From: a virus
DNA: 43,611 nt
Direction: 5' to 3' (one strand)
Virus record (IMG/VR): IMGVR_UViG_3300034198_016666
Span: 1 to 43,611 of that record
A model generated the notes under the pieces. The model did not search any database. It worked only from the letters and a program-made list of their open reading frames with translations, and was not told the origin of the DNA. The position numbers were made by a program, and so were the translations under genes. How positions within the stretch are numbered: the stretch's first letter is position 1; the number at the start of each line of letters is the position of its first letter. Shown here piece after piece: positions 8,452 through 33,737 of the stretch.

Positions 8452-8606
8452 ATGCCCTCCTGACACTTCCTATAACGGCAATTTAGCACAAAGATTAAGC
8501 AGTATTTTTTATGGCCACGGTTTTATTGGATTTTATTTTTTTGTTGCGCTTTAATTCGCTTCCGGTTACGGAACACATCCTTATCCATTCACGGAGAGAA
8601 AACCCT

Positions 8607-8981
8607 ATGCACAATGCGAAGCCATGCCCGTTTTGCCAATCAACACGCCTATCGTTTGACTGTTCTCATCTTGGCACTTCGATGCGCGTGCGTTGCAGAA
8701 GTTGTGATGCGCTTGGGCCGTGGATATTTAAAGCAAAGAATGACGAGATTGAAGACCTTGCTCAAGAGTGCATTGAGCGCTGGAACTTTCGCAAGTCACA
8801 AGATGGATTTACCAAGGTCCAAGACACCTATTTTGGAGGGAAAACAGATGATGAAATTCGTGCTTATGGCAGAGAACAGGGGGCGGGAGAGCCTCAAGTC
8901 CGTACATACCGACCCGAACTTCCCGCCGCGCATCGAGGTCGATCCACGCTCTCACGAAGCGAAAATAGTCGTTACAAATAA
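8607..8981 (+). CDS. Lar-like zinc-ribbon protein (restriction alleviation family)
   Basis: The N-terminal half matches the Lar restriction-alleviation zinc ribbon: CPFC at residues 7-10, then CRSC at 30-33, with SMRVRC between and CIERWNFR after, as in the family. Lar of Rac prophage modulates type I restriction-modification. The ATG at 8607 follows GGAGAG; the frame is open upstream to 8511 without a good site. The last 45 residues overlap the next gene's start and look less protein-like, but no earlier stop exists. The neighbourhood also holds a Dam-type methylase, so an anti-restriction role is reasonable; alternatively it is a general phage zinc ribbon. Confidence 0.7.
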   Translation: MHNAKPCPFCQSTRLSFDCSHLGTSMRVRCRSCDALGPWIFKAKNDEIEDLAQECIERWNFRKSQDGFTKVQDTYFGGKTDDEIRAYGREQGAGEPQVRTYRPELPAAHRGRSTLSRSENSRYK

Positions 8982-11694: not shown

Positions 11695-12374
11695 TTTTTC
11701 TTTTCCTCTTCCATAGAGCGCAAATAGTTTTGCAAATTCTCCATGCGTTCTTTTTTCTGATTGTATTTGTTTTGCTTCTTAATCTTGTCCATCTCGAACT
11801 CGCGCTGTTCGTCCGAAGCCTCAGCAGCAGTCTTTGTTCCGCTCATCCGCCCGCGTTTAAGCTTCTCAGTTCTGTTTTTAAAAGCCTGCGTCTTGTTGTC
11901 ATGCAGTTCACGGATAACAATGTTGTTCTTCCAGATCATGTTGAAGAATCTATTGCGGGCCATTTCATAAAGTTTTTTGATGTAGTTGTGCCTAAAGCTC
12001 TCGACCATGTGTCTGACGGGCAGAATCCCATCCTCTGTCATGTAGTCGCAGTACACTCGGTTCACTATCCCGCGCACCAATTCAAACTCTAAGTATTTCC
12101 CAAGTGGCCTTGCGTGCCCTGCTGTTACTTTAAGACCAACTCTCCGCGACAGAATCTGTGCGTATTCTTCCCACTGGTCTTGTTCAGAATATGCACACGG
12201 TACGATCTTCGTACGATGCGCTCCGGTTGTGTACTTGTTGTGTATCTTTGCCGGGGCAAAATCTTTTTTCTCAGTGGCCTTTCTGATGGCACGCCTTATC
12301 TTATTGCCGCGCCCATCAAACTCTTCGATAATAACAAAGTCGTCTTCATTGATTTGTGTGATCTCTCTTGTCAC
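11691..12374 (-). CDS. Hypothetical basic protein with charged C-terminal helix
   Basis: 227-residue protein without a recognised family. The N-terminal half reads as mixed alpha/beta (NEDDFVIIEEFDGRGNKIRR). The C-terminal 80 residues are strongly basic and acidic by turns (KKQNKYNQKKERMENLQNYL, ending EEEKKK), suggesting a long helix or coiled coil. GTG 12374 is chosen because it overlaps the methylase stop as GTGA and GGAGG lies six bases upstream; a TTG 27 bases earlier is open. It sits between a Dam-type methylase and a small HTH gene in one leftward operon. Confidence 0.65.
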   Translation of the reverse strand: MTREITQINEDDFVIIEEFDGRGNKIRRAIRKATEKKDFAPAKIHNKYTTGAHRTKIVPCAYSEQDQWEEYAQILSRRVGLKVTAGHARPLGKYLEFELVRGIVNRVYCDYMTEDGILPVRHMVESFRHNYIKKLYEMARNRFFNMIWKNNIVIRELHDNKTQAFKNRTEKLKRGRMSGTKTAAEASDEQREFEMDKIKKQNKYNQKKERMENLQNYLRSMEEEKKK

Positions 12375-12862
12375 CACGCACCTCCATGTGTGTTTATCCA
12401 AAAGCCCAAGTGCATCGAGCTAGTCGGTCTTCTCTTATGCATGTTGTAAAAAATGATAGCGCTCCCAAACGGCACCCCACCCCCCTTCTTCTCTTCACGG
12501 ATATACTCCGTTCGACCCTTAAGAAAGAGGACTGCGCTTGCGTGGGGGAAAATAGCCTCCTGCCACGTTTTAGTCTCAAGATTGGTGGCTTTGTATATGG
12601 CGGCCACCTGAACGCCCCTGGAGGCTTCCTTTGCGGCCTTTCTGAACCACACCTCCGATTCCGAGAATGGCGGGTTCATCCAACACACCCTCTCAAGCGG
12701 CCAGTCTTTGCTCAGTGCGTCATCTTCTTTTGTCCAATAGTCCGTAAACTTTGCGTTTATCGCCGACGCACACACATCCAGGGCGTCCCGTATCTCAAGT
12801 TTCTCCAATAAATCCTGCGGTGTTCCCCATTCGTCGTTCCGCCCGCCCTTGTAAATATCCAT
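12371..12862 (-). CDS. Phage DNA N6-adenine methyltransferase (Dam family)
   Basis: 163-residue methyltransferase of the phage Dam type. NEWGTPQ-like NDEWGTPQDLL at 9-19 and the catalytic NPPF at 63-66 (WMNPPFS) are the hallmark motifs; LDVCASAINAKF at 28-39 would be the SAM-binding region. It probably methylates adenine in phage DNA, protecting it or setting regulatory marks. ATG 12862 has GAGGG seven bases upstream; an ATG at 12919 is open but lacks a site. First gene of a leftward trio, with a 49-base divergent gap to the 12912 gene. The target sequence cannot be read from the protein. Confidence 0.85.
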   Translation of the reverse strand: MDIYKGGRNDEWGTPQDLLEKLEIRDALDVCASAINAKFTDYWTKEDDALSKDWPLERVCWMNPPFSESEVWFRKAAKEASRGVQVAAIYKATNLETKTWQEAIFPHASAVLFLKGRTEYIREEKKGGGVPFGSAIIFYNMHKRRPTSSMHLGFWINTHGGAW

Positions 12863-12911
12863 GTTTTCCCTCACTTTACTTCCTATATCGGATGTTTTGG
12901 GGAAAACTTCA

Positions 12912-13136
12912 ATGATCACCCGCCTTGGCTATTACTCCACCCGTGATGGGCGGATTGTTCACATCACCAAGATTTATCAGTCGCAGCCGATTGCGGAAGG
13001 GTCTGTGCGTGAGGGGGATAGAGAGATTCTCGCTATGTGGAGAACCGTGGATGGTCGCATAAGCGAATGGAAATCAAGCCCGCGCGATATCGTCGAGTAT
13101 CTGCATCCCGATACCTCAAACGACTACGATTACTGA
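12912..13136 (+). CDS. Small hypothetical protein
   Basis: 74-residue protein starting MITRLGYYSTRDGRIVHITK, with strand-like segments and an acidic tail (HPDTSNDYDY). It is the only rightward gene between two leftward groups, transcribed away from the methylase. GGGGA nine bases upstream supports ATG 12912; a longer start at 12861 lies in the methylase start. No family recognised. Confidence 0.58.
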   Translation: MITRLGYYSTRDGRIVHITKIYQSQPIAEGSVREGDREILAMWRTVDGRISEWKSSPRDIVEYLHPDTSNDYDY

Positions 13137-13159
13137 TTGTGCAAAAATGATGGGGGATA

Positions 13160-13336
13160 TCACGGTGTCTTTTCGCCCTCTAGCATTCTGAAGACCTCAA
13201 TATAGCCAGCCAGAAAGAAATGCTCTTTAATTTCTTCGGGTGATTTTGCCTCTTGCGATTCAAACGTTTCCCAAATCTCGCATACTTTCTTAAACGCTTC
13301 TTGCAGTTCTTTTGGGGTGTCCTTAACTTTATGCAT
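13160..13336 (-). CDS. Small hypothetical protein (58 residues)
   Basis: Short leftward gene beginning MHKVKDTPKELQEAFKKVCE, with helical, charged composition and a second helix near SPEEIKEHFFLAGYIEVFRM. AGGAG five bases upstream of ATG 13336 is a good ribosome site. It follows the 13380 gene across a 43-base gap containing a perfect palindrome. It is separated from the rightward 12912 gene by 23 bases at its 3' end. Function unknown. Confidence 0.62.
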   Translation of the reverse strand: MHKVKDTPKELQEAFKKVCEIWETFESQEAKSPEEIKEHFFLAGYIEVFRMLEGEKTP

Positions 13337-13350
13337 GTTCGCTCCTGAGT

Positions 13351-13369
13351 TATCCGGAAATTCCGGATA
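13351..13369. promoter_or_regulatory. Perfect 19-base palindrome, possible operator
   Basis: TATCCGGAAATTCCGGATA is a perfect inverted repeat with nine-base arms around one central base. It lies between the stop of the 13380 gene and the ribosome site of the 13160 gene. There is no T tract, so a transcription-factor site is likelier than a terminator. Confidence 0.5.
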
Positions 13370-13379
13370 GTTGAATTGT

Positions 13380-13571
13380 TTACGGTGACACGTCTAGCTT
13401 GATGCCGACAGCCTCTGACTCATCTTGCCAGCGGTCAATTAGTAGCTTACAGACGGCCGTTAGTGCCACGTTCATGCTGTTGTATTCTTTCTGGCAGACT
13501 AGCGTTGCGTCCTCTTCCGCCTCTTCAATGCGTATAACAAATCCATTCGAAACTTTCTCGATGCTAATCAT
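13380..13571 (-). CDS. Small hypothetical protein, paralogue of the 9099-9359 product
   Basis: 63-residue acidic protein. MISIEKVSNGFVIRIEEAEE matches the layout of the 9099 product (short strand, NGF, charged strand), then a helix ALTAVCKLLIDRW. A purine-rich GGGGGAAA precedes ATG 13571. First visible gene of a short leftward pair with the 13160 gene. Function unknown. Confidence 0.66.
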   Translation of the reverse strand: MISIEKVSNGFVIRIEEAEEDATLVCQKEYNSMNVALTAVCKLLIDRWQDESEAVGIKLDVSP

Positions 13572-13600
13572 TCTAATTTCCCCCTATCTATGTGGTGTTT

Positions 13601-13780
13601 TTAACCCCGGCCACCTAGAAGAATCACTTCCTCCGTCAGTCGCTGGTTCTCCCGCCGTTCCGTTTCTAGGCGCTCCACCAGTCTCCGTACCTGCATCTCC
13701 AGCGTTTGCACCCGGTCTTCTGTCTTGCGCACCTGCAAACGGAGCGCGTTCATCATCGTGATCACTTTGTCCAGGTCCAT
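13601..13780 (-). CDS. Small coiled-coil protein
   Basis: 59-residue protein dominated by one coiled coil: heptad-spaced Leu, Val and Met in ALRLQVRKTEDRVQTLEMQV followed by RRLVERLETERRENQRL. ATG 13780 follows a GGGGG run. The start lies within a microprotein gene in another frame (13762-13854). A membrane-anchor microprotein followed by a coiled-coil protein recalls spanin-like or assembly pairs, but nothing in the sequence proves a lysis role. Confidence 0.58.
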   Translation of the reverse strand: MDLDKVITMMNALRLQVRKTEDRVQTLEMQVRRLVERLETERRENQRLTEEVILLGGRG

Positions 13781-13854
13781 ACAAAAACCCCCAAGGCGCA
13801 TCCCAAACCACAAACAATTCCGATCACCAACAACAAATTTATCCATTCCGCCAT
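13762..13854 (-). CDS. Single-pass membrane microprotein (30 residues)
   Basis: A short frame MAEWINLLLVIGIVCGLGCA continuing to VWTWTK, with a single uninterrupted hydrophobic span and a small polar N-terminus. GGGGAAA about nine bases upstream of ATG 13854 could serve as ribosome site. It overlaps the start of the coiled-coil gene by 19 bases in another frame. The combination of ATG, hydrophobic span and coupling makes a real microprotein plausible. Confidence 0.48.
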   Translation of the reverse strand: MAEWINLLLVIGIVCGLGCALGVFVWTWTK

Positions 13855-14211
13855 ATCCAAAATTTCCCCGTACTTATGAGCGTTTTTCGACCCCCGGCAC
13901 CCCTAGTTACCCCCAGGACCGACAGCCGCTGATATCATTGGCTTTTTTATTTTCCAGTCTTTTTAGCATCTTGGCATCTATATGATTTGATTGGATATTT
14001 ATTCTCCAATATTTTCAACGTCTTGCCAAACACACAATTCCATTGAACATTTTTTTGTCCAATGTTTTCAACGTGTTTGAACGCTCCCATGTAACACCAC
14101 GAAACATGAGAGAAACACAAAAAAGCATCAAATAACGCTCATGTAAATACAATTTTCTGCCGATATGGGATCGATCCTCAGTCTCGGGGATCACCTTTGG
14201 GAGATACTGTT
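13855..14211. promoter_or_regulatory. Regulatory gap upstream of the amidoligase operon, with repeats
   Basis: No gene is seen here. TCCAAT(A/G)TTTTCAACGT occurs twice, at 14005-14021 and 14058-14074, exactly 53 bases apart. Each copy sits in a small inverted repeat: TTGGA with TCCAA near 13991-14009, and CATTG with CAATG near 14041-14063. A single CTGATATCATTGG at 13929-13941 matches the array before the terminase genes. These are likely operator or activator sites for the rightward cassette. Confidence 0.5.
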
Positions 14212-15426
14212 ATGACAACGAACCCTAATCTTGTTTGCGCTCGTTCCGCATCTCAGTCTGAGTTCCGCAATTCCCATGTTAGATTGGGTTTTGAGCTTGA
14301 AACAAACTCAGTCAATTCCCTCAATTATCAATCCCTGAACGCTCAGAAACGCTCAGTCACCAAGACACGTACAATTCTCGCACAATCCGCCAACACCTAC
14401 GCCGTCGATGTGCATGATGGGGTTCGATATTCAATATCCAACATAAAACACAAAACACTAAAAAAGATCCACAAGCTAATCTTGTCTGAACACCTCTTAA
14501 CTCAAGATCCACCCATTCAAATCCCCTGTCAGGATGACGCTTTCAGGTCACTCACGATGTTTGTACATACATTTGCAAGACGCGGTCAATCAGGTTTTAA
14601 TTTCCACCAATACCAGAACGCTCACAACGGCCTCTTGGGCGTTCTGAAATACACTCTCGCGCAAACACAAAACACCCAAACAAAGATCAAGCTCACACGT
14701 TTGATCGGGCAATACTTGGCTGCCGATCACTCCATTGTTCCGTCGCTCTCTTCCGCGCCAAGATCCGAAACTCGGACAGAAGAATATCAGGAAGAAGAGA
14801 GCATAGATCTAAAGGAATATCTCCAGTCACTCAATTTCTCCGATGAAACTCTTTCGCTCGATTGGAAACCAGATGGATCGGTGCGCGGTCCAGAGATAAC
14901 AACGGAAGGCCCTCAAACATGGTCGGAAGTCACAGAACGCGCAATCTCTCTTTTCACGGATCTTGATCGTGTTGGTTTTTCAGTCAATTCAGGTTGCTCG
15001 TTTCACATCCACGCATCGATCAATGGAGTGACTCCAAAATATTCTATCAATTTCCAATCGTTTCTCATGCGTTTCGTCCTGAACGATCCAAGGGTTCCAG
15101 TTGGCGTGAGAATGCGCTGGAGATCCGATTCACTCTCTCAATATTTCAATTTCACTCTCGATGCTCAGAAATATCGCTTCGTTGCCATGCGCTCGCAAAC
15201 ATGGGAATTCCGGTGTTTCGGGAATATCGACAATATCACCGATGCTCTTGCCTGTTTGGCTATCGCATCCGACGCATATCACGCGGCCATCAACAATACC
15301 GAAACACTCATGCTACCTATGGGCATGCGCTTTGAAGCTATCGCGCTCCATGCTGCAAAACACTCCATGACGTTTGATCAAGCTCTTGCCGCTCTCACAA
15401 CCAAAGATCAATCGGAAGCTGCTTAA
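14212..15426 (+). CDS. Amidoligase family enzyme (glutamine-synthetase fold, COOH-NH2 ligase)
   Basis: 404-residue protein matching the Amidoligase_2 family. Visible motifs: LGFELETN with Glu28 and Glu30, a middle DGSVRGPEITTEGP (metal and substrate loop), GCSFHIHAS (His pair) and WEFRCFGN near the C-terminus. These enzymes use ATP to join a carboxylate to an amine, forming amide or peptide-like bonds. ATG 14212 has GGGAG eight bases upstream; a TTG at 14197 is poorer. It is followed after 23 bases by a class-II glutamine amidotransferase that could supply ammonia. Codons look richer in ATC/CTC than in neighbouring genes, a hint of transfer. Substrate unknown: host wall peptide, a protein side chain or a small metabolite are options. 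Confidence 0.8.
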   Translation: MTTNPNLVCARSASQSEFRNSHVRLGFELETNSVNSLNYQSLNAQKRSVTKTRTILAQSANTYAVDVHDGVRYSISNIKHKTLKKIHKLILSEHLLTQDPPIQIPCQDDAFRSLTMFVHTFARRGQSGFNFHQYQNAHNGLLGVLKYTLAQTQNTQTKIKLTRLIGQYLAADHSIVPSLSSAPRSETRTEEYQEEESIDLKEYLQSLNFSDETLSLDWKPDGSVRGPEITTEGPQTWSEVTERAISLFTDLDRVGFSVNSGCSFHIHASINGVTPKYSINFQSFLMRFVLNDPRVPVGVRMRWRSDSLSQYFNFTLDAQKYRFVAMRSQTWEFRCFGNIDNITDALACLAIASDAYHAAINNTETLMLPMGMRFEAIALHAAKHSMTFDQALAALTTKDQSEAA

Positions 15427-15449
15427 TTCTTTTCACGGGAGAAATTTCT

Positions 15450-16316
15450 ATGTGTACTATCATAACAACCGACACGATCGACGAGTCACTGTTTACACAG
15501 ATACGCTCCGATGCTCAATTCAACCCTCATGGCCTATCGGCTGTCACGTTTGACGGGCAAGAGTATCAGATTATCAAGACTCACGATCCAGAGTCACTCA
15601 TTCACTCTCTGAGCTTCAAACAGTTCAAACGTGTTTGGGTTCACACTCGGAATGCGACAACATGGGCAAGAGGGATAACAGCGACCCATGCATTCATTCA
15701 TGGTGATTATATTGTGTTCCACAACGGTGTTCTATCGTCATCTGGAGCAAAACAGCATCCTGTTGATTCCATGCTCTTGTGCGATCTTCTGAAATACACG
15801 TCACCGGCAAATATTCAATCAATGCTTAACACCCTTGGCGAAACATGGGCAAATGTCATGATTGTTGATACGAAACTCGACCGGTATTATATTATCCGTC
15901 AGAATTCCGGATCGCTCCATACCGATGCCCATGGGAATTTCTCGACGAACCCATTCTCCGAAATTTCCGTTCCAGTCGGACAAAGTACCAGCGAAACATT
16001 CTCACTCCGACCAATTCCCGTTCCCGTCAAAATAACACCGAATATCGCCGAAATATATGATAGGTTGTATTCTGTCGCTTCCGATGAAACTCTCTCTCAG
16101 ACTGACAAGATCCAGCTCAAGAATGATATTAGAATGATCTCTGATAGTGACTTCGTCGATCTTGTTTACGACTATCAATTTCACAAAAGAACACCAAGAT
16201 CACAAGAATTCTACGATCTCTGCAATTCTAAACAGCGCAAGAAATTAAGAGTCATCCAAAAAGACAGCGATCGATATGAGTCGAAATACAGCTTGAAGAA
16301 TTGGGGTTCAGTATGA
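15450..16316 (+). CDS. Class-II glutamine amidotransferase (Ntn hydrolase)
   Basis: 288-residue protein beginning MCTIITTD; Cys2 would be the nucleophile after Met removal. VWVHTRNATTWARG (substrate Arg segment), ATHAFIHGDYIVFHNG (the HNG motif) and a following VDSMLLCDLLKY match the glutaminase fold of PurF/GlmS/AsnB-type enzymes. No synthetase domain is attached. Expected role: hydrolyse glutamine and hand ammonia to the amidoligase upstream. The C-terminal 90 residues are charged and helical and unassigned. GGGAG precedes the ATG. ATGA couples it to the next gene. Confidence 0.82.
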   Translation: MCTIITTDTIDESLFTQIRSDAQFNPHGLSAVTFDGQEYQIIKTHDPESLIHSLSFKQFKRVWVHTRNATTWARGITATHAFIHGDYIVFHNGVLSSSGAKQHPVDSMLLCDLLKYTSPANIQSMLNTLGETWANVMIVDTKLDRYYIIRQNSGSLHTDAHGNFSTNPFSEISVPVGQSTSETFSLRPIPVPVKITPNIAEIYDRLYSVASDETLSQTDKIQLKNDIRMISDSDFVDLVYDYQFHKRTPRSQEFYDLCNSKQRKKLRVIQKDSDRYESKYSLKNWGSV

Positions 16317-16537
16317 CAACCCTTTACTCCACCCATCCGACACTCTCTCACCTGAGAGGAACACTTTATTGGTCAGATGCCCCGAGACCCCGTGTTATCT
16401 GGCGCGTGTTCGACGATCTACGCTCGGCTCTCACTTCACTGTCCCCTCTTGCCGAGTATCGCCGTGTGTCTGTTATCGCCCGCTATCACTGCCCGCTCTC
16501 TCCAAGGCTTAAGTTTGTTTTGGTTTTGAAGAGATAG
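16313..16537 (+). CDS. Small protein of the amidoligase cassette
   Basis: 74-residue basic protein, no family recognised. Segments: THPTLSHLRGTLYWSDAPRP, VIWRVFDDLRSALTSL, and a C-terminal VSVIARYHCPLSPRLKFVLV that looks like two strands. ATG 16313 overlaps the amidotransferase stop as ATGA, and a terminator follows 23 bases after its stop, so it belongs to the cassette. It may be an acceptor substrate, a specificity subunit or unrelated. Confidence 0.62.
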   Translation: MTTLYSTHPTLSHLRGTLYWSDAPRPRVIWRVFDDLRSALTSLSPLAEYRRVSVIARYHCPLSPRLKFVLVLKR

Positions 16538-16559
16538 GCTCTCTCTCTCCCATTTGACT

Positions 16560-16588
16560 CGCTCTCTCACTGAGAGCGGGTTTTTTTT
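16560..16588 (+). terminator. Rho-independent terminator of the amidoligase operon
   Basis: CGCTCTC (16560-16566) pairs with GAGAGCG (16572-16578) around a five-base loop, followed by GG and eight T. It closes the three-gene cassette. Confidence 0.85.
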
Positions 16589-17042
16589 GTTAGAGCATGT
16601 TAGTGATGAAAGACAGGGAATTGACTCTCGTTTGTTGCTTTGTTCAGCTTAATTGTGGAGAGAGGCAGGGAAGAGGGGTTTTTGCATTTTTCTCTAGCAA
16701 TATCAACCGGATAGCCCACCAGACCTCTAACCTACCGATATCATTAGCTTCTTAACCACTTAATATCATTATACTTAATCTATCTATCTGATATCATTAG
16801 ACTTCTTAACCTATCAATATCATTGAATATATTATAACATCATGATATCATTGATATCTATTAACAGTCTGATATCATTGGGATAAATAGTCTAATGATA
16901 CCGGGGGGTAAGAAAGTACAGAGATTCCGGGGGGTTGGGTGGAAATACCCCCTCAACAAACCCCACCAAAATTTCAGGTTTTTGCCCCCTCCTCCTTCGC
17001 GTGCTACTCTCAAGCAAAACCACACGAACAGGATGTTCACGG
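16589..17042. repeat. 27-base periodic GATATCATT array upstream of terminase
   Basis: No gene is seen. (G/A)ATATCATT starts at 16737, 16762, 16790, 16816, 16844 and 16871, i.e. every 25-28 bases. An inverted AATGATA lies at 16894-16900. Between cores, a second block resembling CTTCTTAACC recurs in several units. CCGGGGGGT then occurs at 16901 and 16927, 26 bases apart. One more CTGATATCATTGG lies upstream of the amidoligase gene (13929). The array directly precedes the small terminase gene, so it may be its binding/packaging site; a regulatory or replication array is also possible. Confidence 0.6.
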
Positions 17043-17726
17043 ATGGAAATTAAAACAGAGAGCAATGCCAATCTAAAGCGTAGAATCCTAGACGAACTCG
17101 CAAACGGCACCGCACTCAAAGAGATTCTTGAGAATCTCAAAGTCAACCCACAAACTTTTGTTTCATTTCGAGACGACCCGGAGTTCGACACCAGTGTTCG
17201 TGCTATTCAGTCACGGATATTGCCAAACGACTTTGCCGAGACGAAGTTAAAGAGGCTGTTTGAACGCGGAGAATCTGATTCGGAGCGGTACGTCGAGAAG
17301 ATAACGCCATCGACCGCGATGCAGATAGCAGAAAAGATGGGAGATGCTCTTTCACGGGGGCTGACCTATGAGCAGGCGTGTATTTATGTGAGTGTCTCGC
17401 CTCTAGATATCCGCAAGTATGCAGAGAAGAACCCTGATTTCTTCAAGGCGCTCAATGAAGCGGAGATGCGCTTCTCACTTTTCCTTATCGACAAGATTAT
17501 GCGTCACGCCCAGGATGACTGGAAAGCTGCTTCATGGTTATTGGAACGCAAATATCCTGAGAAGTGGTCGGACGTGAAGCGCGTGGATATCAAACAGCGT
17601 GCTGCAATTGAGAAGACGACCCAGATCCGCGACCAAAAGCAGATGAAGGGTAAGATAACGACGGTGGATGTTCAGAAGATGAGCGATGAAGAACTCAGGA
17701 AAGCATTGGAAAGTTCACGGTCGTGA
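17043..17726 (+). CDS. Terminase small subunit-like protein
   Basis: 227-residue protein. An N-terminal helical region (ILDELANGTALKEILENLKV) is followed by a second HTH-like segment (LSRGLTYEQACIYVSVSPLD). The C-terminal part has WLLERKYPEKWSDVKRVDI, a signature often seen in small terminase-like proteins. It would recognise the packaging site and recruit the large subunit. ATG 17043 has AGGA nine bases upstream; a longer frame to 16935 lacks a site. The stop overlaps the GTG of the large subunit. The repeat array just upstream is a candidate target. Confidence 0.75.
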   Translation: MEIKTESNANLKRRILDELANGTALKEILENLKVNPQTFVSFRDDPEFDTSVRAIQSRILPNDFAETKLKRLFERGESDSERYVEKITPSTAMQIAEKMGDALSRGLTYEQACIYVSVSPLDIRKYAEKNPDFFKALNEAEMRFSLFLIDKIMRHAQDDWKAASWLLERKYPEKWSDVKRVDIKQRAAIEKTTQIRDQKQMKGKITTVDVQKMSDEELRKALESSRS

Positions 17727-19153
17727 AATTAACAAATGAAGAGTTCCTACAAATCCAGCTTGAGCTGAGGAAGCGTGACTTGCACAGGTTTGTGGAGTCA
17801 ACGGTCCCGAACTTTTCGGACGGTTGGTTGTACAAGGTGCTCTGCGAGAAGCTACAAAAGTTCGCAGAAGATGTCCGTGAGAAGAAAAGTCCACGGCTTA
17901 TCGTGTGTATGCCCCCGCGCCATCTAAAAAGCGAGACAATCTCGGTACGGTTCCCTGTGTGGGGGATGCTCAATAATCCGGGTTGGGAGATTATTGTCTC
18001 GACCTACGGCTCGAATCTCTCGGAGCGTCTGTCACGCAGGGCGCGGTCGCTTATGACCGAGCAATATATCCAAACGCTTTGGCCCACAGCGCGATTAGAC
18101 CCGAATCAATTTTCCGTGAAAGAGTGGAAGATGTTTCACGGATCTAACTTTGCGATACCGACGACCTATAAGGCGGTGGGCAGGGGCGGGGCGTTGACCG
18201 GAAGCGGGGCGCATATCCTTATCTGCGATGACTTGATTAAGGACCAGGCCGAGGCCGACAGCGCGCGTGTGCGAGACGATATGTGGCATTGGTTCAACTC
18301 GACGGCGCGAACACGTTTGACGCCTGGCGGTGGGATCATTGTGGTGAACACGCGCTGGCACAAGGATGATATTACGGGCCGGTTGATTGCAGAGAGTGAT
18401 GCAAAGACCGGCGACCATTGGGAGGTTGTGAACTTCCCGGCAATTGCTGAGTTTGATGAGCCGTTCCGTAAGGTGGGCGAGGCATTGCACCCTGAGCGAT
18501 TCGATCTGCCTGCGTTAGAGAAGATGAAAAGAGCGCTACCGAACCGTTGGTGGGATGCGTTGTATCAACAGCGGCCTGCGTCGGTGGGCGGTGAGATATT
18601 GAAAGCGAGATGGTTCAATGAGTGGGACGTGGCACCTGAGATGGATATTATCATCCAGGCATGGGACCTTCGTTTCTCACGGTCACAGACAGCGGGTTCA
18701 TCGTATGTGGTGGGTCAGGTTTGGGGTGCGCGTGGCTCAAAGCGTTATCTTCTTGACGAGATGCGCGGGCGATGGAGCTATACTGAGAGCAGAGATGCTA
18801 TCAGGGAGATGTGTGATCGATGGCCGCAGGCGACAGCGGTGCTTATTGAGAACAAAGCCAACGGACCGGCGATAGAAAGTGACCTTGAGGGGGAAGTTTC
18901 TGGCCTTGTGCTGTACGATCCGAGGGGTGACAAGATACAGCGCCTTGAGCGTGTGTCTCCACTCATTCGCGCTGGCGATATTTACTTACCGCCGCACGAT
19001 CAAGCGCCTTGGATAACTGATTGGTTGGGTGAGGTGTGCGGTTTCCCACGCGCACCGAATGATGACCGCGTGGATGCAATGAGCATGGCACTTGCTTATT
19101 TGCATGAGCTAAAGAGCGAGTTGGGAACGGTACATGCAATGCACCTCTTGTGA
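17723..19153 (+). CDS. terL: Terminase large subunit
   Basis: 476-residue packaging motor. ATPase part: Walker A-like PPRHLKSE at 64-71, Walker B ILICDD at 165-170, and a coupling motif VVNTRW. Nuclease part: AWD at 313-315, IENK at 375-378 and DDRVDAMSMAL near 447-457, the RNase H-type acids expected of TerL. The length is normal. GTG start at 17723 overlaps the upstream stop as GTGA. It cuts and translocates phage DNA into proheads via the portal encoded downstream. Confidence 0.93.
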   Translation: MKLTNEEFLQIQLELRKRDLHRFVESTVPNFSDGWLYKVLCEKLQKFAEDVREKKSPRLIVCMPPRHLKSETISVRFPVWGMLNNPGWEIIVSTYGSNLSERLSRRARSLMTEQYIQTLWPTARLDPNQFSVKEWKMFHGSNFAIPTTYKAVGRGGALTGSGAHILICDDLIKDQAEADSARVRDDMWHWFNSTARTRLTPGGGIIVVNTRWHKDDITGRLIAESDAKTGDHWEVVNFPAIAEFDEPFRKVGEALHPERFDLPALEKMKRALPNRWWDALYQQRPASVGGEILKARWFNEWDVAPEMDIIIQAWDLRFSRSQTAGSSYVVGQVWGARGSKRYLLDEMRGRWSYTESRDAIREMCDRWPQATAVLIENKANGPAIESDLEGEVSGLVLYDPRGDKIQRLERVSPLIRAGDIYLPPHDQAPWITDWLGEVCGFPRAPNDDRVDAMSMALAYLHELKSELGTVHAMHLL

Positions 19154-19166
19154 TAGGATGTGTGCG

Positions 19167-19379
19167 ATGGCGTTAGTTGTTGAGCTTAAAAAAGGCGAAG
19201 CGGTGAAGATAGGGAACCATGTGTTGCTGGTATCGGCCACACGCGGAGCGCGCCTTGTTCTTAACGCACCAAAAGAAATGAAAATCGAGCGGCTTGGGAT
19301 TGTTGAGGTCAAGGACAATGAAGAAAAAACTGAAAGCGCGACCATCGTCAGAAAAGCTCTCCCCGCTGAAAAGCGTTGA
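19167..19379 (+). CDS. CsrA-like RNA-binding protein
   Basis: 70-residue protein resembling the translational regulator CsrA/RsmA: MALVVELKKGEAVKIGNHVL lines up with the N-terminal strands, G..RLVLNAPKEMKIERLGI with the GxAPxxVxVxRxEI core. The Arg after NAPKEMKIE corresponds to the RNA-contacting Arg44. It lacks about two residues before NAPKE and has a charged 20-residue tail. ATG 19167 has AGGA eight bases upstream and matches the family start. It lies between terL and portal, overlapping the latter by 62 bases. Expected role: bind GGA-containing leaders of phage or host mRNAs. Confidence 0.72.
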   Translation: MALVVELKKGEAVKIGNHVLLVSATRGARLVLNAPKEMKIERLGIVEVKDNEEKTESATIVRKALPAEKR

Positions 19380-25705: not shown

Positions 25706-25903
25706 ATGAGCGAAGAAACTCGCAAGATATTCATTGAAGGAAAGCCTGTAGATTATATAAAAGACGACCAAAAATTGACGAACTTCTTTGAAGAATTTGA
25801 TGATAAAGTATTCCAATCTGCTGAAAAGCAGTTCAAAGAAATATGCGAAAAATTTGATGTTGATGCTTCTTTCACGGTCTTAATTAAATTCAAGGAGGAA
25901 TGA
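25706..25903 (+). CDS. Small acidic protein
   Basis: 65-residue charged protein (EFDDKVFQSAEKQFKEICEK), probably helical with a final strand SFTVLIKFKEE. GAGGA precedes ATG 25706, one base after the upstream stop. It sits between capsid-associated and fibre genes; no family recognised. Confidence 0.62.
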   Translation: MSEETRKIFIEGKPVDYIKDDQKLTNFFEEFDDKVFQSAEKQFKEICEKFDVDASFTVLIKFKEE

Positions 25904-25905
25904 AT

Positions 25906-28758
25906 ATGGCCACGCAGAATTTTCAGTTGATTCATTGGGATGGTACAAAGCAAAAGCGTTCTGACTCTCAGTCTATGGAACTCAAACTCGGTAAGTTGGC
26001 TATTGGCTCACTTGCTGACATTCGCGAAGTTTCTGGCAAGCTCGACTTTGCTGGAATTGCCTTGACAAACCTTGGCGCTCCATCGGTTGATTCTGATGCA
26101 GCTACAAAGAAATTTGTTGATGACTCAATTGCTGCAATCAGTTCCGGTTCACTGGCTGCTTTGGAAGCAGATGTAGACCAACTTCAAACTGATTTAGCTC
26201 AAGAGATTCTTGATCGTGCCGCTGGAGATGTAAGCACTCTCGCTTCTGCTGAAGCGTATGCAGATACAAAAATTGCTGATTTGATTAACTCAGCTCCACC
26301 AATTCTTGACACATTGAAAGAAATCGCAACGGCTCTTGGAAATGATGGTAACTTTGCGACCACAATCACCAACAGCATCGCCGCTGTTCAAGGTGAAGTT
26401 GACGCAGTTGAACTTGCTTTGGCTGCTGAGACGCTGGCTCGTCAAACTGCCGATACCGGACTTAGTTCGCGATTGACAGCACTTGAGACTTTTAAAGATT
26501 CTCAGGTTCTGTTTGTGAGCAAGTCCGGAAGCGATGTGACTGGTACAGGTGGACAGCACAAGCCATTTGCAAGCGTTGGCGCTGCCTTGGCTGCAATCAC
26601 GGACGCATCTCCGACCAAGCGTTACCTCATCAAAGTTCTTGCTGGTGCATATACTGAAGGCGCAATCGCGCTCAAAGCGAACGTGTTCATTTGCGGTGAC
26701 CAAAAAGAAGCGGTTCGCATTAGCGCATCGAGCTTTGCTCTTGCGTCTGACTTCAGCGGAAGCGGTGACCATCGTTCCGGTATGTCCAAGCTGATAATCG
26801 CAGCAGGAAACTGCAATTTTGATTGGTCTGCTGTAACTTCAGCGGCAGGAAAATTGTACTTCAGCGAAGTCTCTACAAATGGAAGCGTTACTCTTACAGG
26901 CCACAACAACGCAATCGCTCAAGCGCAGTTTGACTCTTGCTTGTTCTATAGCAATATCACAATCAGCGGCATCAATGTTGGCGTTTTCAATAACAACATT
27001 TGCTTCGGAAACATCACTCTGAACCAACATCCAAACGGCGGAATGGCTACCATTCTTGCTGCAACTGGTGGACAAGTTGGTGGAACTGTCACGCTGACGA
27101 CAACTGTCAACGATTTCAATCGTCGCTGTTCTTTGTTCGCGAAGAACTTCTACATGGAATATGTCACCATCAACGGTGCGTCTTCTTATGCAGACATGAA
27201 CGAAGGTTCGCTGCCTCGCTCATATGACCGTATCGTTTCTCAGAACGGCGGAAACATTGTTTACATAACATCGAGCGCACCTCACGCAGCAAACGTGAGA
27301 AACCTCGGTGAAGCTGGCAAGCAATATACCTATGTGTTCGGTTATGTTCACGCTTCCAGTGACAGTGATTTGTACCTCATCTCGATGGGCGCAGATTACA
27401 ATCCTTCAAATACTGGCCGCTCCATATTCTTAGAAGCAGACAGTTACGGCCTTGCTGCAAACGTCAACGGCGGAGACATCAATCTTACTACAGCAGCAGT
27501 TTCAGGAACTGGTGTTCGCGGTAAGTTGAAACTTGATGGTCGTGTCATTGATGTTTCGGCGAAAAAGATTGTTGACCTTGCTTCTGGTACAGACTCAACC
27601 GACGCAGTGAACAAAGGACAACTTGATGTTGTTGCTGGCGCTGTTTCAACCGAGCAATCAAGAGCTGAAGCTGCTGAAGCTGCACTCGACGGCCGCCTTG
27701 ATACAATTGAAGGCTCAGGCGCTGGTTCAATTGCAAAAGCACAAGCTGATGCACAAGATTACGCTGATGCCGCCGTGTTGGTTGAGAAGACACGCGCTGA
27801 AGGTGTTGAAGCTGGACTGCAATCTGATGTTGATGATGTTGCTGCTGACTTAGCGCAAGAAATACTTGACCGAGCATCGGCAGTCTCCGCTGAACAAGAC
27901 AGAGCGGAAGCCGCTGAATTGGCTCTTCAAGGAGACGTTGACGCGGTTGCAGCAGACCTCGCTCAGGAACTTCTTGATCGTGCGGCTGCTGATACTGCGC
28001 TCCAAGGTGAAATTGATGCCGTCGAAGGTGACTTGGCACAAGAACTCCTTGATAGAGCGGCTGCCGACACAGCACTGCAAGGTGAAGTCGATGCTGTGGA
28101 ATCCGCACTTGCGCAAGAATTGCTTGACCGCGCTGCTGCTGACACCGCTTTGGATGGCCGCCTGGACGTTATCGAAGGAAGCGGAGCGGGATCTATCGCT
28201 AAGGCTCAAGCTGATGCTGAAGACTTTGCCGACGCAGCCGTTCTTGTCGAAAAGACTCGCGCTGAAGCTGCTGAGTTGGCTTTGCAAGGCGAAGTGGACG
28301 CTGTTGAAGGTGACTTGGCTCAGGAAATTCTCGACAGAGCATCTGCTGTTTCTGCTGTTCAAGGCGAAATCGACGCTCTTGAAGCGGTTGTTGCTGACTT
28401 GAACTTCGTTACCAAGACCGCTGATGAAGCAATCGCTGCTGGAAAAATTTGCTACATCAAGAGCAATGGAAACATCGCACTTGCTGATGCTGACTTGGAT
28501 ATGAGCGACGCCGCTTTGGTCATCGCATTTGAAGCAATCGCTTCGGCTGCTTCTGGCAAAGTTGTTATCAAGGAAGGAACCGTTGTCGGCGGCTTCTCTG
28601 GGCTTGTTCCAGGCAAGAAGTGCTTCGTTTCCAAGACCGCTGGTGGAGTTGTCCAAGTGTTGACTGGCTTTGAGTCAGGAAACTCGGTTTACTGCGTCGG
28701 ACGTGCTATCTCTGCTTCAGAGATTGCCTTCCAACCTGTCTATGAGTTTGAATACTGA
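25906..28758 (+). CDS. Fibre-like virion protein with beta-helix domain and coiled-coil repeats
   Basis: 950-residue fibre, probably trimeric. Around residues 205-290 it enters a pectate-lyase-like parallel beta helix (VLFVSKSGSDVTGTGGQHKP, then FASVGAALAAI), continuing to about 540. Residues about 585-830 contain a coiled-coil stalk with a 25-residue repeat, ALQGE.DAVEGDLAQELLDR plus AAADT, and two copies of a GRLD.IEGSGAGSIAKAQAD segment. The C-terminus is the IALADAD module shared with the preceding capsid-associated protein. Position among head genes suggests a head fibre; a tail fibre or depolymerase is possible. ATG 25906 has AAGGAGG seven bases upstream; ATG 25900 is too close. Confidence 0.72.
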   Translation: MATQNFQLIHWDGTKQKRSDSQSMELKLGKLAIGSLADIREVSGKLDFAGIALTNLGAPSVDSDAATKKFVDDSIAAISSGSLAALEADVDQLQTDLAQEILDRAAGDVSTLASAEAYADTKIADLINSAPPILDTLKEIATALGNDGNFATTITNSIAAVQGEVDAVELALAAETLARQTADTGLSSRLTALETFKDSQVLFVSKSGSDVTGTGGQHKPFASVGAALAAITDASPTKRYLIKVLAGAYTEGAIALKANVFICGDQKEAVRISASSFALASDFSGSGDHRSGMSKLIIAAGNCNFDWSAVTSAAGKLYFSEVSTNGSVTLTGHNNAIAQAQFDSCLFYSNITISGINVGVFNNNICFGNITLNQHPNGGMATILAATGGQVGGTVTLTTTVNDFNRRCSLFAKNFYMEYVTINGASSYADMNEGSLPRSYDRIVSQNGGNIVYITSSAPHAANVRNLGEAGKQYTYVFGYVHASSDSDLYLISMGADYNPSNTGRSIFLEADSYGLAANVNGGDINLTTAAVSGTGVRGKLKLDGRVIDVSAKKIVDLASGTDSTDAVNKGQLDVVAGAVSTEQSRAEAAEAALDGRLDTIEGSGAGSIAKAQADAQDYADAAVLVEKTRAEGVEAGLQSDVDDVAADLAQEILDRASAVSAEQDRAEAAELALQGDVDAVAADLAQELLDRAAADTALQGEIDAVEGDLAQELLDRAAADTALQGEVDAVESALAQELLDRAAADTALDGRLDVIEGSGAGSIAKAQADAEDFADAAVLVEKTRAEAAELALQGEVDAVEGDLAQEILDRASAVSAVQGEIDALEAVVADLNFVTKTADEAIAAGKICYIKSNGNIALADADLDMSDAALVIAFEAIASAASGKVVIKEGTVVGGFSGLVPGKKCFVSKTAGGVVQVLTGFESGNSVYCVGRAISASEIAFQPVYEFEY

Positions 28759-33303: not shown

Positions 33304-33737
33304 GCGCAATCATTGAACTCAACTACGCAGATTGGGCGGCCCTTCAGAAAGAAGGCCGCTCTTTTGATTGCAATACTTGTAAACTGCAAAAACTAAGACG
33401 CTGCCGTGAAGATAGATGGGATTTTGACGAGAAGGACGGAACAATCTGGCCTATGTATGTTCACAAGGGCGGTGAACTGTACGGTTTTTGTCCTGCTAAG
33501 GCGACCTGGGATGGACAGACCATGAGCCTATTCCGTATCCTCCATGTGGCATCGGAAACAGGATCGATGTGGGATGAGGGGCCATTATCCGAACAGCCCG
33601 ATTGGTTCATAGATGTGTTATCATGGTTCCTGACAAAGCATGATTTTGCTAAGTTTCAAACTAAGGCAAGGATGGTCTTAGGCGACGGGAAGAAAGAGTC
33701 TTCTACAGCGCCAAAATCAACTTCAAGGAAGAAATAA
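32839..33737 (+). CDS. Tail assembly chaperone gpGT, made by -1 frameshift
   Basis: The A AAA AAA G run at 33291-33299 allows a -1 shift. Reading then continues AAG CTA AGC GCA into a frame open to TAA at 33735-33737, giving about 299 residues. The downstream part (LSAIIELNYADWAALQKEGR, then SFDCNTCKLQKLRRCRED and YGFCPAKATWDG) has no ATG before 33453 and clearly protein-like sequence from the shift point. CNTC plus two later cysteines look like a small metal site, unusual for gpT. A stem-loop (GCGGCCCTT with AAGGCCGC) at 33336-33359 lies downstream, farther than usual for a stimulator. Start codon of the tape measure overlaps the stop by one base. Confidence 0.75.
33291..33299 (+). promoter_or_regulatory. 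Slippery sequence for -1 frameshifting
   Basis: AAAAAAAAG (A8G) at the end of the gpG-like gene. Zero-frame codons AAA AAA can slip back one base and re-pair fully, and the zero-frame stop TAA follows at 33301. Confidence 0.8.

Follow-up and report, generated by a model that had tools for sequence, protein, structure and literature searches.

Three closely linked open reading frames (ORFs), here called A, B and C, lie on the plus strand of an uncultured phage and raise the question of whether they encode a single enzyme, which of them belong to it and what reaction it might catalyze. The original prediction had described them as a cassette in which an amidoligase is combined with a class-II glutamine amidotransferase (GATase) and a third protein that may be the acceptor. 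The whole stretch of DNA analyzed, referred to as the window, is the virus record IMGVR_UViG_3300034198_016666 (43,611 nt, 43.6 kb), and its gene set is that of a tailed phage.

Setting and layout of the operon

On one side of the operon lies an early region encoding a helicase, an exonuclease, SSB, a Sak4-like protein, a primase, RuvC and a DNA methyltransferase, while the packaging and virion genes lie on the other, with terS at 17046, terL at 17723, the portal gene at 19294 and the tape measure gene at 33737. The interval from 12371 to 19153 was seen to hold no more than the methyltransferase, the cassette, small ORFs, terS and terL, and the main ORFs scanned there gave no ATP-grasp or GGCT match. 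The phage encodes anti-restriction functions close to the operon, namely the methyltransferase (12371–12919, minus strand, PHROG 111) and a Lar-like restriction-alleviation protein (8511–8981, plus strand, PHROG 599).

The linkage of the three ORFs was confirmed as claimed, with a gap of exactly 23 bases between A and B and an ATGA overlap between B and C (Table 1). A GGGAG ribosome binding site is found ∼8 nt upstream of the A start at 14212, and GGGAG also stands upstream of B. Two related phages, IMGVR_UViG_3300020183_000128 (G001) and IMGVR_UViG_3300023179_000341 (G002), were found first by patterns, and the operon leader can be aligned across all three phages, although a 70-aa ORF sits between the leader and A in G001. 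Within the leader, the promoter-like motif CTCATGTAAATACAATTTTCTG (14138–14159) occurs only once in the window, and the 7-bp hairpin (14173–14192) keeps its pairing in G002, where by alignment a U-G pair is replaced by U-A. The proposed terminator is likewise present as a hairpin with a T-run 3′ of gene C, and a hairpin followed by T-rich sequence can be read at the equivalent position of G002. The pN/pS ratios relative to G002, 0.15 in A and 0.08 in the GATase domain of B, indicate purifying selection, so that both are genes rather than chance ORFs.

The operon had also been said to be bounded by repeats, and this is a fair description. Two copies of a TTTTCAACGT(C/G)TT repeat are found 5′ of the operon at 14012 and 14065, and GATATCATT(A/G)G-type copies occur at 13931, 16737, 16790, 16844, 16871 and 16892, such that the left-hand AT-rich repeats span 13929–14077. 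The repeat count exceeds that of every one of 100 shuffles, with seven GATATCATT-type matches in the window versus 1.3 expected. However, the right-hand array directly precedes terS and may serve packaging or regulation, and the AT-rich arrays are possibly packaging or regulator sites. G002 has T-rich direct repeats of its own, TTTTCAGGATGTTAACTTTC, 5′ of the operon.

Table 1. Coordinates in the window of the operon, its protein domains and the surrounding elements
Feature	Position	Strand	Basis or description
Recombination block (leader, A and GATase domain of B)	14103..16018	+	82% match to G002
Operon leader	14122..14211	+	AT-rich promoter-like stretch, 7-bp hairpin, then ribosome binding site of A
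Gene A, predicted glutamine-synthetase-fold amidoligase, 404 aa	14212..15426	+	hhalign, Pfam match of relatives, fold comparison, motifs
Helical insertion in A, residues ∼57–186	14380..14769	+	Low-confidence model, comparison with relatives
Gene B, 288 aa	15450..16316	+	Class-II GATase domain and helical C-terminal domain
Predicted class-II GATase domain of B, residues ∼1–190	15450..16019	+	hhalign, PDB matches, motifs
Helical C-terminal domain of B, residues ∼199–286	16044..16307	+	Model, relatives; no known family
Gene C, 74 aa, no recognized family	16313..16537	+	ATGA overlap with B
Predicted rho-independent terminator	16556..16589	+	11-pair stem (16556–16582) and T-run
GATATCATT-type AT-rich array between operon and terS	16735..16902		Repeat count versus expectation

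Families of the A and B proteins

A locus search with two-row alignments yielded G002 alone, and further relatives had to be sought with hand-made DNA patterns; a degenerate DNA pattern for the A motif WEFRxFGN led to six additional phages (loci L037, L039, L040, L043, L044 and L045). Because IMG/VR was scanned with exact patterns, these relatives are a biased sample rather than a census. Two pattern scans of bacterial genomes found no relative; such scans require exact peptide patterns and leave absence unproven.

Neither A nor B of the window passes a cut-off of Pfam, PHROG or NCBIfam. For the window A protein, a Pfam search gave no match to PF12224 (Amidoligase_2), the PHROG amidoligase family was matched below cut-off (E 0.067), and protein searches found nothing in the phage collection (tblastn) or in plasmids. 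An Auxin_inducible identity (E 0.06) was dismissed as a chance match. When A was compared by hhalign with eight known phage amidoligases, three rows gave a probability of 67 (E 5e-5) and a 10-row alignment a probability of 91 (E 9e-7), and a profile built on known phage amidoligases matches A at E 1.7e-4. PF12224 itself is matched by 2 of 10 relatives of A (best E 0.0048). Because the window protein has no such match, we describe A as homologous to amidoligases and probably of the glutamine synthetase (GS) fold, not as a formal Pfam member.

The active-site motifs of A (GFELE 26–30, DGS 221–223, E228, CSFHIH 262–267, R302 and TWEFRxFG 330–337) align with those of the eight phage amidoligases. 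Across 10 A proteins, the signatures GxExE, D(G/S)S...E, HxH and ...E(F/Y)R occur in order and are invariant or nearly so, with full invariance at G26, E28, E30, D221, E228, C262, H265, H267 and R302 as well as at T330-W331-E332, R334 and F336-G337. At the structural level, the AlphaFold model of A was built from three sequences and is of low confidence (pLDDT 56); in VIA-align, its best-ranking rows consist almost entirely of glutamine synthetases, GmaS and Dop, with Z scores of 4–6.6 that stay below 8. The matches also include guanido kinases, and all of them form one broad fold group. None of these proteins matches A at the level of sequence as far as glutamine synthetase, GmaS and Dop were compared, and a viral fold library yielded no significant match. 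Between the GFELE and DGS active-site strands, A carries a lineage-specific insertion of ∼130 extra, mostly helical residues, which is missing from the compact 270-aa A of L039 and varies in length in other relatives. The profile comparison, the bridging relatives, the fold comparison and the conserved catalytic residues together uphold the amidoligase call, and A is predicted to be a divergent GS-fold carboxylate-amine ligase that has retained its active-site residues.

For B, hhalign comparison with known phage class-II GATases gave a probability of 95.5 (E 1.6e-8) with three sequences and of 98.2 (E 6e-14) once the six added relatives were included. The B family profile matched 15 PDB sequences (GATases at E 4e-4), the names of which are amidophosphoribosyltransferase, GlmS/GFAT, a class-II GATase-domain protein and one hypothetical protein. 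Window B by itself has no Pfam match, relatives of B match PF13522 (GATase_6) at E 3e-4, and a protein search with B gave weak GATase matches in Vibrio and E. coli phages only, with no match in plasmids. Its motifs, which were aligned to GlmS and PRPP amidotransferase, are Cys2, HTRxAT 65–70, H80, HNG 91–93 and DS 106–107; C2, H65, R67, A69 and T70 are invariant in all nine sequences, and H80, H91-N92-G93 and D106-S107 in all eight complete ones. The class-II assignment thus stands on the hhalign and PDB matches, the GATase_6 matches of the relatives and the retained catalytic residues, and the N-terminus of B is predicted to form a class-II glutaminase domain (Ntn, Cys2) in which the residues for catalysis and glutamine binding are intact. 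A misaligned active site had been named as grounds for rejecting the cassette; as judged from sequence, the residues of both A and B do align and the catalytic columns are invariant.

The overall AlphaFold model of B, built from three sequences, is of low confidence (pLDDT 51) and matches both Ntn hydrolases and PP2C phosphatases, and it is taken as consistency only. The best-modeled part is the C-terminal domain (pLDDT 62–86), which has the sequence pattern LVYD...LCNSKQRKKLR. This domain can be detected in the B of L040 (hmm 223–271), and the compact B proteins of L037, L039, L043 and L045 (222–236 aa) do without it.

Linkage, exchange and the place of gene C

In all nine loci, A lies directly 5′ of B on the same strand, with a spacing that ranges from a short overlap to 27 bases. 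Because six of these loci were picked on A alone, the presence of B next to it is an independent observation. The A and B distances are correlated across eight loci (Mantel r 0.94, p 3.5e-4), to which shared phage ancestry contributes. The arrangement varies in detail: the 187-kb phage contig of L040 has two tandem diverged A genes (409 and 436 aa) followed by one B (L040:2284–6019), L039 has a compact pair of 270 and 232 aa, and in the L044 record (G007) B is divided by the contig ends, as expected for a circularly permuted contig. The tight coupling of A and B that had been claimed from the window alone thus extends to all nine loci, and the two genes are a conserved operon pair that is co-inherited. 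Small Cys-rich (zinc-ribbon-like) proteins are encoded downstream of B in L037 (1720–1872, minus strand) and L045 (4054–4212, plus strand); they are similar to one another and unrelated to C.

Gene C behaves differently from the pair. It is present only in the window, G001 (78% identity) and G002 (45% identity), which share most of their genome; a survey for C in the loci with the pair found it in three of nine. The C profile matched nothing in the six other A–B phage records, which reach up to 187 kb and may be fragments, and nothing credible among 50,697 phage records; as the profile is built from only three sequences, all of them close, a divergent homologue could escape it. Weak matches of C to DUF7457 (PF24256) have E values of 0.014 and 0.0085. 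In G001, two ORFs separate B from C, and this insert (L024:10673–11271) encodes ORFs of 82 aa and 117 aa (DUF7699, E 9e-18).

These data bear on the proposal that the three genes form a cassette for peptide modification, with C accepting the amide bond. C does overlap B in the window and sits 3′ of B in the three related phages, as such an acceptor might. Since C was not detected in six A–B phages and lies two genes from B in G001, however, the idea is left unsupported, and we consider it very improbable. In addition, C has a variable C-terminus and a single conserved lysine, and it lies outside the exchanged segment described below. A Pup-like acceptor with a conserved C-terminal Glu or Gln was not found: C ends in ...LVLKR in the window and G001 and in ...LVFKAPKL in G002. 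The role of C as a third component, which the original prediction had put forward, therefore does not survive; C is a lineage-specific passenger, a neighbor conserved within one phage group and outside the A–B core.

A comparison of the window with its two closest relatives points to a mosaic history of the operon. G001 is a sister phage, with 96% identity in terL, 98% in the portal protein and 96% in the primase, in contrast to 45% in A and 64% in B. G002 is more distant, with 84% in terL and 77% in the portal protein, whereas A is 85% identical and the first 180 residues of B are ∼95% identical, and the C-terminus of B and C drop to ∼40–47%. At the nucleotide level, the G002-like segment is one sharp-edged match of 1917 nt, 82% identical. 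Sites exclusive to G002 outnumber those exclusive to G001 by 166:8 in A and 62:3 in residues 1–185 of B, and the ratio is reversed past the breakpoint (7:33 from residue 186 of B to its end, 6:31 in C) as well as in terL (3:61), RuvC (2:48) and the portal gene (7:174). The leader, A and the GATase domain were thus exchanged between phage lineages as one block, the right edge of which falls inside B at a domain boundary. Such a block, which takes in A but no more of B than the GATase domain, fits a co-adapted A–GATase enzyme. In G001, A, B and C have each diverged further from the window than the remaining genome has, and this unusual divergence makes it likely that more than one exchange took place.

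Other differences between these phages were seen as well. Among the virion genes of the window, a 952-aa ORF (25900–28758) is 51% identical to its G001 counterpart versus 90–98% for its neighbors, so that it may be a tail or receptor-binding protein that is subject to exchange. G001 also has, between terS and terL, an ORF that reads as a cytosine-C5 DNA methyltransferase-like gene (L024:12673–13620) and is missing from the window.

Proposed reaction and relation to known systems

We regard it as somewhat probable that A and B form one two-subunit, glutamine-dependent amide ligase, because both proteins are homologous to known families, their catalytic columns are invariant, they are linked in nine of nine loci with correlated distances, they fall within a single exchange block, and minimal amidoligase–GATase pairs are already known from Arthrobacter phage Kharcho and from OM43 phages. 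In such an enzyme, B would hydrolyze glutamine to glutamate and ammonia and hand the ammonia to A, which, like glutamine synthetase, would use ATP to activate a carboxylate as an acyl-phosphate and would convert it to a carboxamide. The parts that vary among phages, namely the helical insertion in A and the C-terminal domain in B, may recognize the substrate or a host factor and are plausible specificity elements. Our guess for the substrate is a host component, probably of the cell envelope, or a phage component, the amidation of which might benefit the phage, for instance through superinfection exclusion. We consider unlikely the broader reading that A and B are a separate, database-invisible family of glutamine-dependent phage amidating enzymes with a variable host target in conflicts of phages with hosts or with one another, in which the ligase and GATase domain are swapped among phages as a cassette and the A insertion and C-terminal domain of B set specificity.

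The pair is a divergent variant of already published phage amidoligase–GATase pairs, on a branch that standard databases do not recognize. Amidoligase and GATase genes (PF12224, PF13522) were reported in the OM43 phages MEP401 and MEP402 (PMC10580990). Kharcho gp65–66 resemble A–B in being an adjacent pair with the ligase first and the GATase second, and in having no ATP-grasp or cyclotransferase in the stretch examined. The Kharcho proteins differ in that they have no A insertion and another C-terminal domain than B, and A has no tblastn-level similarity in the phage collection. No enzymology for phage amidoligase–GATase pairs was found in the literature examined, and the roles given there are proposals. 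Proposals that phage pairs modify cell walls, proteins or metabolites date from 2009, the year of the founding paper (Iyer et al. 2009). The Giles Y2H paper is irrelevant as an amidoligase precedent, since its ‘amidoligase’ is host CTP synthetase.

Larger cassettes with an amidoligase, a GATase, an ATP-grasp protein and a cyclotransferase are known from LUZ24-like phages (PMC3890496), from RIO-1-like phages (PMC5498523) and from SU7-type and PhiM6 phages; for such cassettes, an alteration of the cell wall against superinfection has been proposed (PMC5498523, PMC10580990). In the phiEco32/SU7, LUZ24-like and RIO-1-like podoviruses, the amidoligase (PF12224) and GATase are homologous to A and B at the profile level, and the cassettes add an ATP-grasp protein, a COOH-NH2 ligase and a gamma-glutamyl cyclotransferase and lie near the primase gene. 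In contrast, A and B stand as a pair alone in their own operon 5′ of terS, and the ATP-grasp plus cyclotransferase that accompany the pair in phiEco32- and RIO-1-type cassettes were not found among the main ORFs scanned at 12371–19153.

The content of the larger cassettes suggests gamma-glutamyl chemistry and favors an alternative that we hold possible though rather doubtful, in which A serves as a ligase for gamma-glutamyl or other amino-acid groups and B, with its class-II GATase fold, hydrolyzes gamma-glutamyl amides, such that an amino-acid group of a small molecule or peptide would be added by A and trimmed by B. The EgtA and EgtC steps of ergothioneine synthesis provide a model for it, some class-II GATase-like domains may be hydrolases of gamma-glutamyl amides instead of glutaminases, and Amidoligase_2 proteins are usually believed to use amino-acid amines, which also favors this alternative. 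However, neither an ATP-grasp protein nor a cyclotransferase is found beside A–B or, by eye, among the ORFs listed for the six distant loci, and B keeps the residues with which true glutaminases handle glutamine, though its motifs are compatible with a gamma-glutamyl hydrolase.

Another proposal, that such genes boost usable host nitrogen during infection as auxiliary nitrogen or glutamine metabolism, has a precedent in Phage-ZRK32, for which a nitrogen role was suggested for amidoligase, GATase, glutathione synthase and cyclotransferase genes (PMC10945688). That claim is based on whole-phage growth rather than on enzymes. Moreover, A differs from canonical glutamine synthetases, and a coupled glutaminase would consume glutamine and add no nitrogen. 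Allele swapping of the catalytic block would also better suit a variable target than a house-keeping reaction, and we consider a nitrogen role for A–B quite improbable.

A–B is a minimal two-gene version of these systems, occurring in several unrelated phages, with a ligase and a glutaminase that move together as one functional block. The conserved core can now be separated from lineage-specific add-ons, and compact forms such as the L039 pair are good subjects for biochemistry, which makes a known puzzle more testable; the identity of the substrate would put the long-standing superinfection-exclusion proposal to the test.

Outside phages, glutamine synthetase, GmaS and Dop share the fold class of the A model and no sequence-level match; unlike them, A would have no ammonia source of its own and is paired with a glutaminase, and there is no Pup-like protein. 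MurT/GatD of Staphylococcus is a two-gene ligase and glutaminase that amidates a peptidoglycan carboxylate, with MurT reported to resemble Mur ligases (PMC3267633). Its mechanism is analogous to that proposed for A–B, and both folds are different. GatD is a class-I (triad) glutaminase.
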